Positions 1-5,805 of a stretch of 5,805 nucleotides of DNA are shown here, piece by piece. The notes beneath the pieces were generated by a model that was given only the letters and a program-made list of their open reading frames with translations, was not told where the DNA came from and searched no databases. How positions within the stretch are numbered: the first letter of the stretch is position 1; each line of letters opens with the position of its first letter. The position numbers and the translations under genes were made by a program. The stretch spans positions 1 through 5,805 of the forward strand of contig DAOWAL010000081.1 of assembly GCA_030634615.1 (NCBI GenBank), in the 5' to 3' direction. This DNA is from Candidatus Aenigmatarchaeota archaeon (GTDB lineage: Archaea > Aenigmatarchaeota > Aenigmatarchaeia > QMZP01 > QMZT01).

Positions 1-228
1 GTATTACAAGCAGTTGAAATCTTAGAACTTTATGGTCTTGAAACAAAGGTTATAGGAGCATCGCTAAGAAATGCCAGACAAGTCAGAGAAGTTGCAGAGA
101 CCGGTGCACAGATAGCAACAGTACCTTTTGCTGTTCTGGAAAACATGATAAAGCATCCAAAAACATTTGAAGGTATCATACAGTTCTCAAAAGACGTTGT
201 TCCAGAGTATAAAAAACTCTTTGATTAA
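1..228 (+). CDS. tal: Transaldolase family protein, C-terminal fragment (5' end outside window)
   Basis: The reading frame is open from base 1 and ends at TAA 226-228, giving the last 75 residues. The segment has the C-terminal signature of the small (about 215-residue) TalC/fructose-6-phosphate aldolase type of transaldolase: a GASLRN strand end (about residues 19-24 of the fragment), then GAQIATVPFAVL and a KHPKTFEG helix start. In this family the region forms the last strands and helices of the (beta/alpha)8 barrel. The catalytic Schiff-base lysine would lie upstream and cannot be checked. Known family role: transfer or aldol cleavage of a dihydroxyacetone unit in the non-oxidative pentose phosphate pathway, in the cytoplasm. 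The ending VVPEYKKLFD is slightly longer than that of the typical bacterial TalC. It is a core-metabolism gene and probably not part of the polysaccharide cassette downstream, from which it is separated by 82 bases. Confidence 0.85.
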   Translation, partial: VLQAVEILELYGLETKVIGASLRNARQVREVAETGAQIATVPFAVLENMIKHPKTFEGIIQFSKDVVPEYKKLFD

Positions 229-310: not shown

Positions 311-1603
311 ATGAACATTTCGATTATAGGAACAGGTTACGTCGGGCTTACAACAGGCGTTGGATTTGCAGTCAAAGGAAATGAAGTTTCATGTGTAGAC
401 ATTGATGAAAAAAAGGTCGAAAGAATAAACCTCGGTGATTCCCCAATTTACGAGCCATTACTTGATGATTATCTAAAAAGAGTCTTGGACCAAAGAAGGT
501 TCAAGGCGACAACCGATCTCAAATCCGCTGTTATGAACTCAGAAGTCAGCTTCATTTCAGTCGGCACACCTTCAGGAGAAGGCGGCAAAATTGATCTAAA
601 ATTCATTGACCAGGTATCAAAGCAGATAGGAGATATTCTGAAAATCAAAGATTTATACCATATAATTGTTGTTAAATCGACAGTTATACCCGAAACAACT
701 GAAAAAGTTGTTCTCAAAAATTTAGAAGAACGTTCAGGTAAAAAGGCAGGAGATGATTTTGGCGTCTGCATGAACCCTGAATTCCTTAGAGAAGGTGTTG
801 CGATGGAAGATTTCCTAAACCCGGACAGAGTTGTCATAGGTTCCATTGACAAAAAATCCGGAGATGTCATAGAAAGACTCTACGAAAATTTCAAAGCACC
901 AATACTCAGAACAAACCTCAAGACAGCTGAGATGATAAAATATGCAAGTAACTCACTTTTGGCAACAAAGATATCATTCACAAACGAGGTTGGAAACATC
1001 TGTAAAAAAATCGGAATAGATGTGAATGAAGTTATGAAAGGTGTTGGTCTTGACCACAGAATATCTGATAAATTCCTTAATGCAGGATGCGGATATGGCG
1101 GATCGTGCTTCCCTAAAGACGTTGAAGCGCTCATAGGAAAAGGAAGGGACACAGGATACGAACCAAAGCTCTTACAGGAAGTTCACGACACAAACATGAG
1201 ACAAAAAGTAATAATAGTAAAGCAGCTTGAAGAAAAACTTGGTGATCTGAAAGGAAAAACGATATCAATTCTCGGACTTGCATTCAAGCCGGATTCAGAT
1301 GATATCAGAGAAGCTTCTTCAATTGAAATAATCAAAAAACTAACTGAAAAGGGAGCAAACATCAAAACATATGATCCTAAAGCAATGGGTCACATGAGAA
1401 ATGTTTTCCCTGACATTGAATACAGTAAAAGCGCAAAAGAAGCGATAAAGGATTCTGACGCGTGTCTTATACTAACCCACTGGAAAGAATTCAAGGATTT
1501 GAGAGAAGAAGACTTTAAAGAAATGAGTAACAGGTTAATAATCGAAGGAAGAAGGATTCTTGACAGAGAAAGAGTATTCGGTTTTGACGGCGTATGTTGG
1601 TAA
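311..1603 (+). CDS. ugd: UDP-glucose 6-dehydrogenase
   Basis: Predicted cytoplasmic enzyme that oxidises UDP-glucose to UDP-glucuronate with two NAD+. At 430 residues it has the normal family length. Visible motifs in order: Rossmann GTGYVG at 7-12 with an acidic ribose-binding residue near D30; SPIYEPLL 44-51; SVGTP 83-87; KSTV 122-125; NPEFLREG 155-162; NPDR 170-173; K210 and N214 in the EMIKYASN helix; catalytic Cys266 in GYGGSCFPKD (261-270); and the C-terminal UDP-binding segment LGLAFKPDSDD (321-331) with ILTHWKEF (387-394). No key residue is missing. The VGTP form, rather than VPTP, favours UDP-glucose over UDP-ManNAc/GlcNAc dehydrogenases, but substrate cannot be fixed from sequence. 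The ATG is set by the GAGGTGAT site. The last 10 bases overlap the next gene, so they are probably co-transcribed, and the product is a likely precursor supplier for the surface polymer. GC content looks higher here than in the following genes. Confidence 0.93.
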   Translation: MNISIIGTGYVGLTTGVGFAVKGNEVSCVDIDEKKVERINLGDSPIYEPLLDDYLKRVLDQRRFKATTDLKSAVMNSEVSFISVGTPSGEGGKIDLKFIDQVSKQIGDILKIKDLYHIIVVKSTVIPETTEKVVLKNLEERSGKKAGDDFGVCMNPEFLREGVAMEDFLNPDRVVIGSIDKKSGDVIERLYENFKAPILRTNLKTAEMIKYASNSLLATKISFTNEVGNICKKIGIDVNEVMKGVGLDHRISDKFLNAGCGYGGSCFPKDVEALIGKGRDTGYEPKLLQEVHDTNMRQKVIIVKQLEEKLGDLKGKTISILGLAFKPDSDDIREASSIEIIKKLTEKGANIKTYDPKAMGHMRNVFPDIEYSKSAKEAIKDSDACLILTHWKEFKDLREEDFKEMSNRLIIEGRRILDRERVFGFDGVCW

Positions 1604-2661
1604 ACAAAAATTTAATAATAAAAGTGGTAGGTATTATCCTGCTCCTGATTCTTGTATTTTTCACCATATCAACTATTTTTTCACAACATGACATAATCGA
1701 AGATGATGATACTAAACCAGACTTAGTTGCACAATTTACAATATATGATTTATATGATAGAGGGCTGGATTCTACTTTCAAAAAATTGAAAGAAGATGGG
1801 TACAGCATAGTAATAGTACAGGTGTTCCCAGACAATGAACAGGGTGTATTTTGGGATTCTAAAATAGCTCCAGTAAATGAGGATTTGTTGAAAAATGCTG
1901 TTACATCAGCACATTCAAATGGTTTGAAAATATGGGCATGGGCAAAAACTCTTGACACATTATGGTTATACGATGATAACGATGAATGGAAAGTAAAAGC
2001 ACTTGAAAGTGATGGATACACGTATGAAACCGGATGGTATAAAAGAATAAGCCCATGTGTTGACGAGCATATATTATATCTAAAAAAACTTTTCAGAGAA
2101 ATTGTCACGGACTATGAAATTGATGGTATACTGCTTCAGGATGATTTGTATCTAGGAGGGAACGAAGATTTCAGTGAAACGTGTAGGGAAAAATATCTAA
2201 GTGATTTTGGTGAAGAACTTTCGAAAGATGTTTTAATGAAAGATAATTATAATGTTTTTTCCACATGGAGAACAGGATATATAACAAATGTAATTTCTGA
2301 AATTGGTAATGAAATAAAGAGTGTAAGACCAGAAATTAAACTTGCTGTAAACATATATCCATCATGCGTAACAAACATGCAAGAGTGTTTAAATGATAAT
2401 TCACAAAACGTTTCAGAAATTGTAAAATATGCTGATTACATTGTTCTTATGGCATACCACAAACTTGATGGAAAATCCGTTAACTGGATAAGTGAAATTA
2501 CAACTGGTGCCATTGCGATAGCTGGTAAAGAAAAAGTTATAATAAAACTCCAGACAGTTGACTGGAGTACTGGAAATAAGTTGGACAATGATGAAATGAA
2601 ACATGCAATAGATACTTCAACGAGCAGTGGAGCAGAAATAGTGGCATTTTTCCCTTCTTAA
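1594..2661 (+). CDS. Membrane-anchored PgaB C-terminal-type glycoside hydrolase (GHL13/GH153-like)
   Basis: 355 residues with a single N-terminal hydrophobic anchor (about 8-29), a short acidic linker (33-39, IIEDDD...) and one extracytoplasmic domain (about 43-355). There is no lipobox cysteine. The domain follows the C-terminal domain of E. coli PgaB, as I remember it, from end to end: the VQVFPD strand (75-80; PgaB LQAFAD), LKIWAWAKTL (111-120; PgaB VNIYAWMPVL), YKRISP (149-154; PgaB YHRLSP), DGILLQDD (177-184; PgaB DGILFHDD), IKLAVNIYP (248-256), YIVLMAY (282-288), and a final LQTVDW and FFPS. The D183-D184 pair sits where the family's proposed catalytic acids lie. In bacteria this domain (CAZy GH153) cleaves partially deacetylated poly-N-acetylglucosamine. 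Here it is a stand-alone protein without the N-terminal deacetylase. The start overlaps the dehydrogenase end by 10 bases with no clear ribosome-binding site, suggesting reinitiation. Alternative: another glycosidase-like barrel of the same clan with a different polymer substrate. Confidence 0.78.
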   Translation: MLVNKNLIIKVVGIILLLILVFFTISTIFSQHDIIEDDDTKPDLVAQFTIYDLYDRGLDSTFKKLKEDGYSIVIVQVFPDNEQGVFWDSKIAPVNEDLLKNAVTSAHSNGLKIWAWAKTLDTLWLYDDNDEWKVKALESDGYTYETGWYKRISPCVDEHILYLKKLFREIVTDYEIDGILLQDDLYLGGNEDFSETCREKYLSDFGEELSKDVLMKDNYNVFSTWRTGYITNVISEIGNEIKSVRPEIKLAVNIYPSCVTNMQECLNDNSQNVSEIVKYADYIVLMAYHKLDGKSVNWISEITTGAIAIAGKEKVIIKLQTVDWSTGNKLDNDEMKHAIDTSTSSGAEIVAFFPS

Positions 2662-2693
2662 AACTCTGCTCACATATTTTTTAACGTATCGTA

Positions 2694-3482
2694 ATGAAAC
2701 AACAAATATTTTTTGGAATAATAGTAGTATTGATTTTATCAGCACTGTTTCTTGTTCTACCACAACTCCCGTCAAATAACACACAGAATAAAGGTATAAT
2801 AATTTTCAACATGGATGACATTCAGGGAAACTGGCTGGAGGATATTTCAAAAACTCTTGTTGAAACACATATAGAAAACGAAGCAGATGTTGTGCTTGGA
2901 GTAATACCACAGAACCTCGATAACATGATACCTTACATAAAGGATTGGTACAGTAATCATAAGGACGTTGTCGAGATAGCTCAACATGGATTAAATCATA
3001 CGGTAGTATACAGAGGGAAAACTTATGACAGGCAGCAAGAACTGATAAAAATGGGGAAAAATATTTTCCTTTCAATTGGTGTTGAACCGAAAACTTTCAT
3101 ACCACCATTCTCAGAGTTGGACAATACAACACTCAAAGTATTGAGTGAAAATGGTTATGAAGAAACATTAACACATACCGGAAAAGGTTACTCATCAGGA
3201 AATATTTTGGTAATTTCAAACGTAGTTTTCCTATGTGAATCAGAATATGTCGGCTACAATTGTACAATAAAGAAAACAGAAAAAATAGTCGAAGAAATTG
3301 AAAAAAATATAGATGAAAGTGGAGTTGCAGTTATTTTTTATCATATCCAGGATTTTGCGACAGAAGAAAATATATTGGACACAGAAAAACACGAAACACT
3401 AAAAGATATTATTTCGTTTTTGAAAAATAGCGGAAAATACGAGTTTATGACAGCAAATGAATATCATCACAAAATATCTTAG
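2694..3482 (+). CDS. Membrane-anchored polysaccharide deacetylase-like protein (NodB/DUF2334-type fold)
   Basis: 262 residues: N-terminal membrane anchor (about 5-23), then a single extracytoplasmic catalytic domain. The carbohydrate esterase motifs are visible: MDD (D41, D42) at the end of the first strand, metal-binding HGLNH (H98, H102), FIPPF (135-139) in place of the classic RPP loop, and a late H217 in FYHIQDF. The PPF and HxQDF forms resemble the DUF2334 branch common in archaea more than canonical NodB. The family removes N- or O-acetyl groups from polysaccharides using a divalent metal. Next to a PgaB-type hydrolase, the parsimonious role is N-deacetylation of an amino-sugar polymer, as by the N-terminal half of PgaB. 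C181 and C190 could form a disulfide. The gene starts 32 bases after the hydrolase with no recognisable Shine-Dalgarno sequence; the short T-rich gap (TATTTTTTAA) could hold a weak promoter or terminator. Its stop lies two bases from that of the convergent gene. Confidence 0.82.
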   Translation: MKQQIFFGIIVVLILSALFLVLPQLPSNNTQNKGIIIFNMDDIQGNWLEDISKTLVETHIENEADVVLGVIPQNLDNMIPYIKDWYSNHKDVVEIAQHGLNHTVVYRGKTYDRQQELIKMGKNIFLSIGVEPKTFIPPFSELDNTTLKVLSENGYEETLTHTGKGYSSGNILVISNVVFLCESEYVGYNCTIKKTEKIVEEIEKNIDESGVAVIFYHIQDFATEENILDTEKHETLKDIISFLKNSGKYEFMTANEYHHKIS

Positions 3483-3484
3483 AA

Positions 3485-4534
3485 CTACATGCGCTTCATT
3501 TCCCATATTTGAGAAGGCGTCATAATAACAGTATCATTCATTGAATTGAACTTAAGATAAGCACTCTTGTACATTTCCCATTTTGTAACATTAACTATAC
3601 CGTTACGTTGCATTTTTTCATTGTCATATTCCTCTATATCCCAGTTTTCAATGAATACAGGAACTATTGTAATGTTTCCAAATTTTCTCACTCCTGCCCT
3701 GTTTTCGGAAGCAATTTCTTCCATTCTATTTAACAAGTATTCAAGTGTGTTAAAGTCTTCGTAATCCATAGATTCGCTGTCCTCGGGGAAACCTACACTG
3801 TACTGATAGACATCAAAATCAGTTGTCTGATTCATGATTTCAATATCGTCACCAATATACAGTTCAAAGTACGATTTGAAGCCGAGCTCTTCTAAAGCTC
3901 TCATTGTATCTTCATTGACAACACCCATTAACGCATTGAATGAAAATATGGATACGTTTTGTTCTGGAAGAAGTTTATTTATTTTTTCCTCGAGTCTTTC
4001 TTTACCAATATGTATTTTTGCTTTTTGTTGATAGAATGGGGTTTTGTGCAAAAACATATCTATTTTAGGAGTGTCTGTACCCTTTTGTAAAATTTCAAAA
4101 CAGTTGCTCAAGTATATTTTTTTAAGAAGTGTATCAAATACGTCATTATCCTCAAGGTCAGTCGCATAGATACTCAAGGCTGCGGGTATTTCGTTTTCTA
4201 AGTGAAACTGTATAAAATGTGAATCTACATTGGTAAGCCATTCTTCAGATATTTCACCATCCAAAGATCCTATGTAAGGAACGAGTATTTTTGTGACATT
4301 ACCACTCTTAATTTTTTCAACTTTGGATTCAAAATCCATACACGTGTCTTTAACGGATTCACGTATTTCCTTGTCTTCTATTACCTTTACAGTACTATCT
4401 TCAATAAATTCAATCGGTACCGTGAAAATATCAGGATTAATAAAATATAACATAACAACTACCACAAAAAGTACCACGATTAATCTTATGATTTTAGAAA
4501 AACCTTTTACAAATTCATCATCTGACACGTGCAT
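3485..4534 (-). CDS. Membrane-anchored degenerate deacetylase-fold protein, probable pseudoenzyme
   Basis: 349 residues: short cytoplasmic N-terminus, one membrane segment (about 16-32), a charged linker (about 45-76), then an extracytoplasmic domain. I know no named family for it, but it aligns by eye with the convergent deacetylase encoded at 2694-3482. EEWL...FHLENE (97-115) matches GNWL...THIENE (45-63) without gaps, EILQKGTDT (147-155) matches EIAQHGLNH (94-102), and NEDTMRALEELGF (207-219) matches DNTTLKVLSENGY (143-155). At the catalytic positions the DD pair becomes G93-E94, the two metal histidines become K151 and T155, PP becomes A201-L202, and the late histidine falls near I295. 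It is therefore unlikely to be a metal-dependent deacetylase. It might bind polymer or act as a partner of the synthase or deacetylase (inference). The ATG overlaps the synthase stop (TAATG), and a GGAG lies upstream. Six N-x-S/T sequons and two cysteines (C65, C145) lie in the outer part. No frameshift is visible, so it is not a decayed gene. Confidence 0.72.
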   Translation of the reverse strand: MHVSDDEFVKGFSKIIRLIVVLFVVVVMLYFINPDIFTVPIEFIEDSTVKVIEDKEIRESVKDTCMDFESKVEKIKSGNVTKILVPYIGSLDGEISEEWLTNVDSHFIQFHLENEIPAALSIYATDLEDNDVFDTLLKKIYLSNCFEILQKGTDTPKIDMFLHKTPFYQQKAKIHIGKERLEEKINKLLPEQNVSIFSFNALMGVVNEDTMRALEELGFKSYFELYIGDDIEIMNQTTDFDVYQYSVGFPEDSESMDYEDFNTLEYLLNRMEEIASENRAGVRKFGNITIVPVFIENWDIEEYDNEKMQRNGIVNVTKWEMYKSAYLKFNSMNDTVIMTPSQIWEMKRM

Positions 4535-5805
4535 TATTTCTCCATCCCGATTAAATTAATGTCCTTTGGTGTAGCGTAAAATTCGTCACGATTCCATGTA
4601 CTGTTCCATCTTCTAGTCCCGCCAATATATTCAAACGTTACCTTGAAAGCAGCAGTTAACCACAAAGAACACCACAAAAATTTTATTATATATACTTCTG
4701 GCAAATTAAGAAGCATTCTTTTGTCAATGTACGTCAAAGAAAATACCGTAAATAACAGATCTGCAAAATAGAACCACGTGAAAAATTCTGGGAAAAAGAA
4801 AAATAGTACTGGGCCTGATATGAAAATTGGACTGTATACAAAAATATCAAAATATGTCGGCATTAGTGTTGTTAAAAATAATGACTTTGCTTTGAAAAGA
4901 TTTCTACCGTGTTTGTAAAGACATTGGAATCCTCCGGTGTACCATCTAAAAACCTGTTTACAGTGTCCTTTAAACGTGGATGGGTCTACACATCTGACAA
5001 ATGCGTTTTTCTGAAAACTTATGCGATGTCCCATCTCAAGTGTTTTCCATGTCATGTCCATGTCTTCAACATTAGTACCTTCAGGGAATTTTCCTACCTT
5101 TTTTAGGAAAGATGCTCTATAAGCAGCACTATCACCACAAACAACAGACACAGCATTCCTGATCATCTGTGCTTCTTTTCTGAAGCAGAAGAAAAGATAC
5201 TGAAAAACACTTCCCCTAAATATTATTCTTCCAAAAATATTTCTCTGCATAATAGGTGTTGATATGCCTGTAGATATCATAACTTTTTCATCATCAAATG
5301 GCTTTACTATCTCTTCTATGTAGTTTTTGGACATGAATGTGTCTGCGTCAAGAAAAATTGCGACATCACCGAGGAAAAAGTTTTTCATTGCATGTGAAAG
5401 ACTGTGAGATTTTCCCATATTCTTTTCTTTTTCAATAATAACAAGGTCCCTGTATTTTCCTTTTGCCAGTTTACACATCTCAACTGTTCTATCTGTTGAA
5501 CAATCATCGACGACTATTACTTTTTCAGGTTTTACGGTTTGATTAAAAGCATGATTTATACATTCACCTATATTCAATTCTTCATTGTAAGCCGGTATAA
5601 CAACATAAACACGATAGTCTTTCTTTTTTACGCTAACTGCTTTTTTTTCATCAGTTGGAACCATGAGCTTAATACAACGATTAATGAAATTGACTTTCAT
5701 TATTTTTTTGTTGATTTTTTTAAAAGTGCTAAGAATGGATGTTTCAGAACTGTAAAGTCTCGTCAATGGTCTAAAAATGTACATAGAATAAATATTTTTC
5801 AAAAA
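4534..5805 (-). CDS. Processive family 2 glycosyltransferase (PgaC/IcaA/hyaluronan synthase type), 5' end uncertain
   Basis: Membrane polysaccharide synthase, predicted to polymerise a UDP-sugar and pass the chain through the membrane. Numbering is from a possible TTG start at 5802: PAYNEE 70-75, VVDDCSTDRT 97-106, DAD 152-154 (metal/UDP), VEDMDMTWK 245-253 (catalytic base region), QVFRW 283-287 (the Q-x-x-R-W acceptor motif of processive enzymes), then membrane segments about 317-338, 341-358 and 366-388, and the tail GGTRRW, as in PgaC-like proteins. All active-site motifs are intact. The frame is open to the window edge and neither TTG 5802 nor ATG 5784 or 5700 has a good ribosome-binding site, so the start may lie beyond the window. 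PgaC-type enzymes normally have membrane helices before the catalytic domain, and none is obvious in the visible N-terminal part. Polymer identity (poly-GlcNAc, hyaluronan-like or other) cannot be read from sequence. It is translationally coupled to the downstream anchored protein. Confidence 0.88.
   Translation of the reverse strand, partial: FLKNIYSMYIFRPLTRLYSSETSILSTFKKINKKIMKVNFINRCIKLMVPTDEKKAVSVKKKDYRVYVVIPAYNEELNIGECINHAFNQTVKPEKVIVVDDCSTDRTVEMCKLAKGKYRDLVIIEKEKNMGKSHSLSHAMKNFFLGDVAIFLDADTFMSKNYIEEIVKPFDDEKVMISTGISTPIMQRNIFGRIIFRGSVFQYLFFCFRKEAQMIRNAVSVVCGDSAAYRASFLKKVGKFPEGTNVEDMDMTWKTLEMGHRISFQKNAFVRCVDPSTFKGHCKQVFRWYTGGFQCLYKHGRNLFKAKSLFLTTLMPTYFDIFVYSPIFISGPVLFFFFPEFFTWFYFADLLFTVFSLTYIDKRMLLNLPEVYIIKFLWCSLWLTAAFKVTFEYIGGTRRWNSTWNRDEFYATPKDINLIGMEK
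4540..4548 (-). promoter_or_regulatory. Ribosome-binding site inside the synthase 3' end, with TAATG stop/start overlap
   Basis: On the - strand GGGATGGAG ends five bases before the TAATG junction at 4532-4536. There the synthase TAA shares its last A with the ATG of the degenerate deacetylase gene. The GGAG core plus one-base overlap indicates translational coupling and supports ATG 4534 as the true start. Confidence 0.6.

Follow-up and report, generated by a model that had tools for sequence, protein, structure and literature searches.

A candidate split PgaB cassette for making and processing an amino-sugar polymer in an Aenigmatarchaeota archaeon

Genes of the cassette

We analyzed a 5,805-nucleotide contig of a Candidatus Aenigmatarchaeota archaeon (C124, GenBank DAOWAL010000081.1), referred to in its entirety as the window; it belongs to a genome of 1.10 Mb in 142 contigs that is 83% complete. 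Six genes were identified by reading of the open reading frames and by Pfam and NCBIfam matches (Table 1). Four of them constitute the cassette investigated here, encoding a PgaB-type barrel hydrolase, a DUF2334 deacetylase, a protein designated P5 and a family 2 glycosyltransferase (GT2) synthase. The initial annotation had named the synthase, the hydrolase-type domain and the deacetylase, all of which are present at or near the positions it gave, but it overlooked P5, the most unusual part of the locus. It had also noted that neither PgaA nor PgaD is visible; for PgaA, the longest frame in the window (430 amino acids) is shorter than PgaA.

Table 1. Features of the window, with their positions and the basis of each assignment
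Feature	Position	Strand	Basis and remarks
Transaldolase/fructose-6-phosphate aldolase, 3' end	1..228	+	PF00923, 37.4 bits; resident flank, outside the cassette
UDP-glucose/nucleotide-sugar 6-dehydrogenase (UGD)	311..1603	+	TIGR03026, 481.6 bits (cut-off 189.8); resident flank
PgaB/GH153-type barrel hydrolase, predicted membrane-anchored	1594..2661	+	355 amino acids; PF14883, PDB PgaB matches, residue map, tree
DUF2334/CE4-like deacetylase, predicted membrane-anchored	2694..3482	+	262 amino acids; PF10096, 47.3 bits; alignment with archaeal neighbors
P5, degenerate DUF2334-related domain (pseudo-deacetylase), predicted membrane-anchored	3485..4534	-	hhalign, residues
Membrane GT2, PgaC/IcaA-like synthase, cut by contig end	4534..5805	-	Motifs, TIGR03937

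The barrel protein matched GHL13 (PF14883) with 103.5 bits over residues 55-353, well above the curated cut-off of 27, and GHL10 with 52.1 bits (cut-off 27.9). On the two-domain PgaB model TIGR03938 it reached 88.4 bits and remained below the cut-off of 321.9, because only one domain is present. A phmmer search against solved structures returned the PgaB hydrolase domains 4p7l (E 4.9e-15), 4f9d (E 1.4e-14) and 6au1 (E 9.6e-10). The profile search thus gave a GHL13/PgaB match, in agreement with the PgaB hydrolase-type domain originally proposed. The protein has an N-terminal hydrophobic segment at residues 1-35; one homologue of 562 amino acids (P0002) carries an extension of about 190 residues ahead of this segment. 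An identical barrel protein is recorded on two contigs, of which the longer has 8,369 bases.

We then compared the barrel with PgaB residue by residue. According to passages of PMC5933820 and PMC13366581, the probable catalytic residue of PgaB is D474 in Bordetella bronchiseptica (Bb), which is D466 in Escherichia coli (Ec). Its equivalent in the barrel, D183, is Asp in all 17 relatives aligned, and E191, the equivalent of Ec E474, is Glu in 15 of them. The position of Ec H465 is occupied by Gln in 17 of 17 relatives, and the same residue is found there in the two-domain PgaBs of locus L021, which adjoins a PgaA gene, and of Selenomonas (L025), which adjoins PgaC and PgaD genes. The three aspartates of the -3 subsite (Bb D326, D328 and D364) were mapped to Ec D320, D322 and D358 from the spacing given in passages of the same two papers, and they correspond to T49, Y51 and D80 of the barrel, the last paired by eye; one of the three is therefore kept. 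The first of these aspartates is retained in several archaeal barrel relatives. A Thermoproteota barrel cut by its contig end (L027:9983-10733) keeps the first two (QLDLDL) and is in this region nearer to canonical PgaB than the barrel of the window.

One-per-species genomes were scanned with the barrel alignment, which yielded 35 loci, and a midpoint-rooted tree of 49 rows was built with one row for each of these loci and 12 of the 17 homologues besides the barrel itself (P0007, P0008, P0011, P0016 and P0017 were omitted). The barrel fell in a clade of 12 archaeal and metagenomic rows (support 100/98). Together with EcPgaB, which is a long branch, L021, L025 and L027, this clade formed a 16-row side separated by a 100/100 branch from the other 33 rows, which comprise 26 bacterial stand-alone loci and seven metagenomic proteins. 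The archaeal rows do not form a single clade, since L027 falls outside the 12-row clade. By this sequence tree, the barrel groups with the two-domain PgaBs and apart from the other GHL13 rows, and we rejected its assignment to the bacterial stand-alone GHL13 type, from which the tree separates it.

The adjacent deacetylase exceeded the cut-offs of both DUF2334 (26 bits; score in Table 1) and Polysacc_deac_1 (26.0 bits, cut-off 23.1). Its site is complete, consisting of D41-D42, H98, H102 and H217 (DD, HxxxH and a C-terminal His), which bears out the DD/HxxxH motifs reported earlier and places it among DUF2334/CE4-like proteins. Phmmer against solved structures returned nothing under E 0.035. 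The N-terminus is hydrophobic (residues 1-29); the three processing proteins of the locus each possess one strong N-terminal segment of this kind, a prediction consistent with the membrane tethering suggested in the initial annotation.

Deacetylases of the NodB2 type that act on poly-beta-1,6-N-acetylglucosamine (PNAG) have MT5 as their N-terminal motif, as described in sections of PMC10967932, and the motif order of EcPgaB is H55, then D114 D115, then H184 H189. The order in the window's enzyme is that of an ordinary NodB protein, without an N-terminal MT5 of the PNAG de-N-acetylase type. Because this order is non-permuted, the enzyme is not of the PgaB type, and the archaeal barrel and deacetylase therefore make a pair of other make-up than PgaB.

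P5 is encoded directly behind the synthase; the stop codon of the latter and the start codon of P5 share one base (TAATG). It had no match in Pfam or NCBIfam, and three relatives were found at 46-49% identity. When P5 was used as a profile, the deacetylase of the window was recovered with a weak score (E 3.3e-4). A comparison by hhalign of profiles built from 11 P5 and 8 DUF2334 sequences gave a probability of 98.1 and a pairwise E of 1.1e-13 over 225 columns. In this comparison the deacetylase residues D41, D42, H98, H102 and H217 correspond to G93, E94, K151, T155 and E296 of P5. All 11 P5 members have Lys in place of the metal-site His (H98) and lack the second His (H102), one of them having a gap there, and Asp41 is replaced in every member; Asp42 is kept in three, the window's P5 not among them. 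At the position of H217, Glu is found in the four stand-alone P5 proteins and His in the seven P5 domains of other genomes. The Asp and two His that make up the metal site of an active NodB domain are thus missing from the window's P5 (E94, K151 and T155). Given the replaced or absent metal-site histidines and the Asp losses, P5 is predicted to be an inactive deacetylase. A P5 structure model based on four sequences had low confidence (pLDDT 47.2) and was set aside.

The synthase is a GT2 with the D-A-D, E-D and QxxRW motifs, which aligned to those of E. coli PgaC as previously described. This alignment, together with a structure model with long C-terminal helices, indicates the processive-GT2 motifs and C-terminal membrane helices; the family alignment used 32 of the best 120 of 342 relatives. 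The frame runs off the contig end, and a relative 65% identical (P0024) extends about 27 residues further at the N-terminus, where it has a hydrophobic segment. The best NCBIfam match was TIGR03937, the PgaC/IcaA family, with 128.3 bits (next, 61.3), as compared with an equivalog cut-off of 422.3 and a score of 648 for E. coli PgaC. Full-length relatives (P0024, P0025 and P0029) scored 129-147 on this model, and the part missing from the window's gene amounts to only about 27 residues. The relatives of the synthase, among the matches listed, form a set of their own with identities of 46-65%. By sequence scores, it is nearest to PgaC/IcaA and far below the family cut-off. The designation of a PgaC-type synthase thus stands as far as the best family is concerned, but not at the level of the score, and the gene lacks the end cut off by the contig. 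Hyaluronan synthase topped the fold list; PgaC was named neither in the 23 sequence matches nor among the fold-list matches listed, which has no bearing on kinship. Elsewhere in the same genome, two adjoining GT2 genes (L053, G000:C20:1-3164) had PgaC/IcaA (158 bits) and CelA (161 bits), respectively, as best matches; lying on a short contig, they possibly represent a second polysaccharide locus.

Relatives in other genomes and the genomic setting

Seven of the 35 barrel loci are archaeal (four from Nanohalarchaeota, two from Methanothrix/Methanosaeta and one from Thermoproteota) and 28 are bacterial. With the window included, a DUF2334 gene lies directly beside the barrel in six of eight archaeal loci (the window, L015 and L017-L020), either with a 4-base overlap or with a gap of 14-32 bases. 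The exceptions are L016 and L027, where the contig stops at the barrel and the side covered shows no adjoining DUF2334 gene. For the bacterial loci, PgaB-N and eight DUF2334 domains served as BLAST references, supplemented by one DUF2334 profile. Two of the 28 are two-domain PgaBs; in the other 26, neither DUF2334 nor PgaB-N was matched within the stretches covered, several of which are short or one-sided, and the screen was confined to these deacetylase families. The proteins of these 26 loci (L022-L024, L026 and L028-L049) are stand-alone GHL13 members and make up a large bacterial group.

The gene order in a Methanosaeta locus (L017) is GT2, a sugar epimerase-family gene, barrel and DUF2334, and no GT2 was detectable by BLAST in the covered stretches of the Nanohalarchaeota loci (L015 and L018-L020). 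Two other features were observed in Nanohalarchaeota: upstream of one barrel gene lies a frame for a 1510-amino-acid protein that combines an F5/8 type C domain with two DUF2334 stretches (L019:1052-5584), and an FAD-dependent protein (FAD-depend_C) comes after the barrel gene in two loci (L018:10932-12416 and L019:10476-11891).

P5-type genes were found in seven of 156 genomes of the phylum, the other six at 25-31% identity to the window's P5. In those six, P5 is preceded by a DUF4215-like motif that scored 22.8-56.5 bits (cut-off 27), and in five it lies in open frames of 979-1444 amino acids that also hold Polysacc_deac_1 or DUF2334 domains; the sixth (G021) encodes it in a 387-amino-acid protein, with WbqC and GT2 genes beside it on the opposite strand. 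A GT2 gene is near P5 in six of the seven genomes. The remaining one (G099) had none within the 10.4 kb examined, its giant frame starting at the contig end. The window's DUF2334 subfamily occurs in four of the 156 genomes (E <= 1e-8), all of which also carry P5 (Fisher p 1.5e-6), although in G052 and G099 the two counts are not independent, because both domains are in one protein. A two-Cys stretch is common to the window's deacetylase and the first domain of the giant G052 protein.

A recurrent gene row was found in four of these genomes, which belong to the same class as the host (G052, G074, G045 and G069; loci L061, L062, L064 and L065+L082). It consists of PIG-L, WbqC, GT2, GNAT, DegT and a 249-amino-acid protein and closes with the giant protein, which carries deacetylase, DUF4215-like and P5 domains. 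Pfam supplied the family names for G052, and BLAST extended them to the other three. G052 has exactly this row; in G074 and G045 GNAT and DegT are separated by two further genes, and in G069 one opposite-strand frame precedes the giant gene. The GT2s of G052, G074, G045 and G021 are 24-29% identical to that of the window. Amino sugars are substrates of the PIG-L, GNAT and DegT families in many pathways, which agrees with an amino-sugar polymer; the row looks like an archaeal amino-sugar polymer operon. No description of such a row was found in the open-access literature, among the matches listed.

The host genome contains a partial archaeal 16S rRNA (914 bits to RF01959, the best within its clan). 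UGD is present in 21 of 26 genomes searched, and those of three genomes of the host's family are 73, 69 and 68% identical to the window's copy. In these three (L072, L073 and L074) UGD is preceded on its strand by a transaldolase gene, as in the window, directly in G007 and with one frame intervening in G006 and G002. From this identity and gene order, we conclude that the contig belongs to the archaeal genome, in line with the archaeal host guessed earlier; by sequence, the host is an archaeon and the genes are real. A bacterial contaminant contig was rejected on the basis of the UGD/transaldolase context and the P5 relatives in the same archaeal class. A viral origin was also rejected, since viral contigs scanned with the P5 and barrel alignments contained no relative.

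Barrel, DUF2334 and P5 genes were all absent from the six UGD regions inspected (the G006 region extends just 382 bases past UGD), and barrel and P5 were not found in the genomes of these regions. Since UGD appears to be a resident gene, the four-gene cassette looks inserted behind it. The GC content is 38% in UGD and 32-33% in the four genes after it, a weak contrast because the transaldolase end is also at 34.5%. The end of UGD overlaps the barrel start by 10 bases, and UGD is possibly co-transcribed with the cassette.

Interpretation and alternatives

The sequence comparisons establish the gene identities, the motif states, the adjacency, the recurrence in other archaea and the archaeal host. 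We infer from them the enzyme activities, the kind of polymer, the topology and a role for P5. With a probability of roughly 0.58, the locus is an archaeal "split PgaB" cassette whose products work in a Pga-like manner with partly unrelated parts, making an amino-sugar polymer at the cell surface, removing some of its N-acetyl groups and clipping it. The membrane GT2 would polymerize a UDP-activated N-acetylated sugar and thread the chain through the single membrane, and the membrane-anchored DUF2334 enzyme would then strip some acetyl groups outside the cell. The PgaB-type barrel, standing alone rather than forming the second half of PgaB, would cut the modified chain and thereby set its length or release it. 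P5, having lost the metal His and the catalytic Asp, may bind the emerging chain or hold synthase and deacetylase together.

The initial annotation had proposed a PNAG-like polymer. An amino-sugar polymer is a fair reading, whereas PNAG itself is not established, because the synthase is below the family cut-off, the deacetylase is of another type and two of the three -3 subsite aspartates are lost. These same points make it unlikely that pga or ica genes moved into the archaeon as a true PNAG system making poly-beta-1,6-GlcNAc: the synthase attains 128 of 422 bits, the deacetylase has the wrong motif order and the lost aspartates belong to the GlcN site, even though PgaC/IcaA is the nearest named synthase family and the barrel groups with two-domain PgaBs and keeps the catalytic Asp. 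A polymer of the glycosaminoglycan kind (hyaluronan-, heparosan- or chondroitin-like), in which uronic acid and amino sugar alternate and for which UGD would supply UDP-glucuronate, is rather improbable. It would accord with the position of UGD directly upstream of the barrel and overlapping it, with hyaluronan synthase as the first entry in the fold list and with the epimerase-family gene ahead of the barrel in Methanosaeta. UGD as proof of a uronic polymer was rejected, as it is a resident gene.

The gene pairs are convergent, and archaeal GT2s often serve protein glycosylation. The locus could thus consist of two unrelated units, in which GT2 and P5 decorate an N-glycan or the S-layer and barrel and DUF2334 degrade a polysaccharide of a host or neighboring cell; the Nanohalarchaeota pairs without a BLAST-detectable GT2 in the stretches covered fit this arrangement. 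We consider it quite improbable, since in the G052 GT2 operon one giant protein contains both P5 and a DUF2334 domain belonging to the window's subfamily, thereby linking the two halves, and since GT2, epimerase, barrel and DUF2334 genes follow one another in the Methanosaeta locus.

Returning to the split cassette, a broader proposal is tentative and more doubtful than that reading: that archaea own a synthase-dependent amino-sugar exopolysaccharide machine, in which a PgaB-type cutter works with a non-permuted DUF2334 enzyme independently of the PgaB fusion, the Lys-bearing dead deacetylase is the chain-handling subunit of the synthase, and the split cassette and the giant-protein operons are two builds of one machine. 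A barrel domain of the PgaB side beside a different deacetylase is seen in three archaeal lineages. If the split cassette works as described above, make-deacetylate-clip control of an amino-sugar polymer was assembled more than once, and small-genomed archaea run such a system without an outer membrane. The P5 family would provide a direct genetic handle on the coupling of such synthases to modifying enzymes.

Comparison with known systems

No PgaB-type hydrolase or PNAG system in archaea was found by title in the open-access literature, among the matches listed. A survey (PMC7112194) describes the hydrolase domain as exclusive to Gram-negative pga operons and ica as lacking the barrel; the statement of exclusivity does not cover archaea.

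The barrel resembles the C-terminal hydrolase domain of PgaB (GH153) of E. coli and B. bronchiseptica in its family, its catalytic Asp, the second acidic residue (E474/E191) and the deacetylase beside it. It differs in standing alone with its own N-terminal hydrophobic segment, in the change of His465 to Gln, in the loss of Asp320 and Asp322 of the -3 subsite and in its partner deacetylase of another type. That deacetylase shares with the DUF2334 (PF10096)/CE4 NodB enzymes the DD, HxxxH and C-terminal His in standard order, and is set apart by its place beside a PgaB-type barrel and by the two-Cys stretch in common with the G052 giant protein. The synthase has in common with PgaC/IcaA (TIGR03937) membership in GT2, the DxD, ED and QxxRW motifs, the C-terminal membrane helices and the top score among named families, but it scores far below the cut-off and has its own set of relatives.

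NodB domains said to be inert or without metal or catalytic residues include Ba0150 (4M1B) and EcCDA (2VYO), as mentioned in sections of PMC10967932. P5 is like these in being a NodB domain without metal or catalytic residues, and is distinguished by the Lys at the metal-site His in 11 of 11 members and by its genetic context, either immediately after a synthase gene or in fusion with deacetylase domains that look active. Taken as a whole, the cassette resembles pgaABCD and icaADBC in combining synthesis with de-N-acetylation, and pga also in hydrolysis; it differs from these operons in the lack of an outer-membrane porin, in its archaeal host and in its separate genes arranged in two convergent units.

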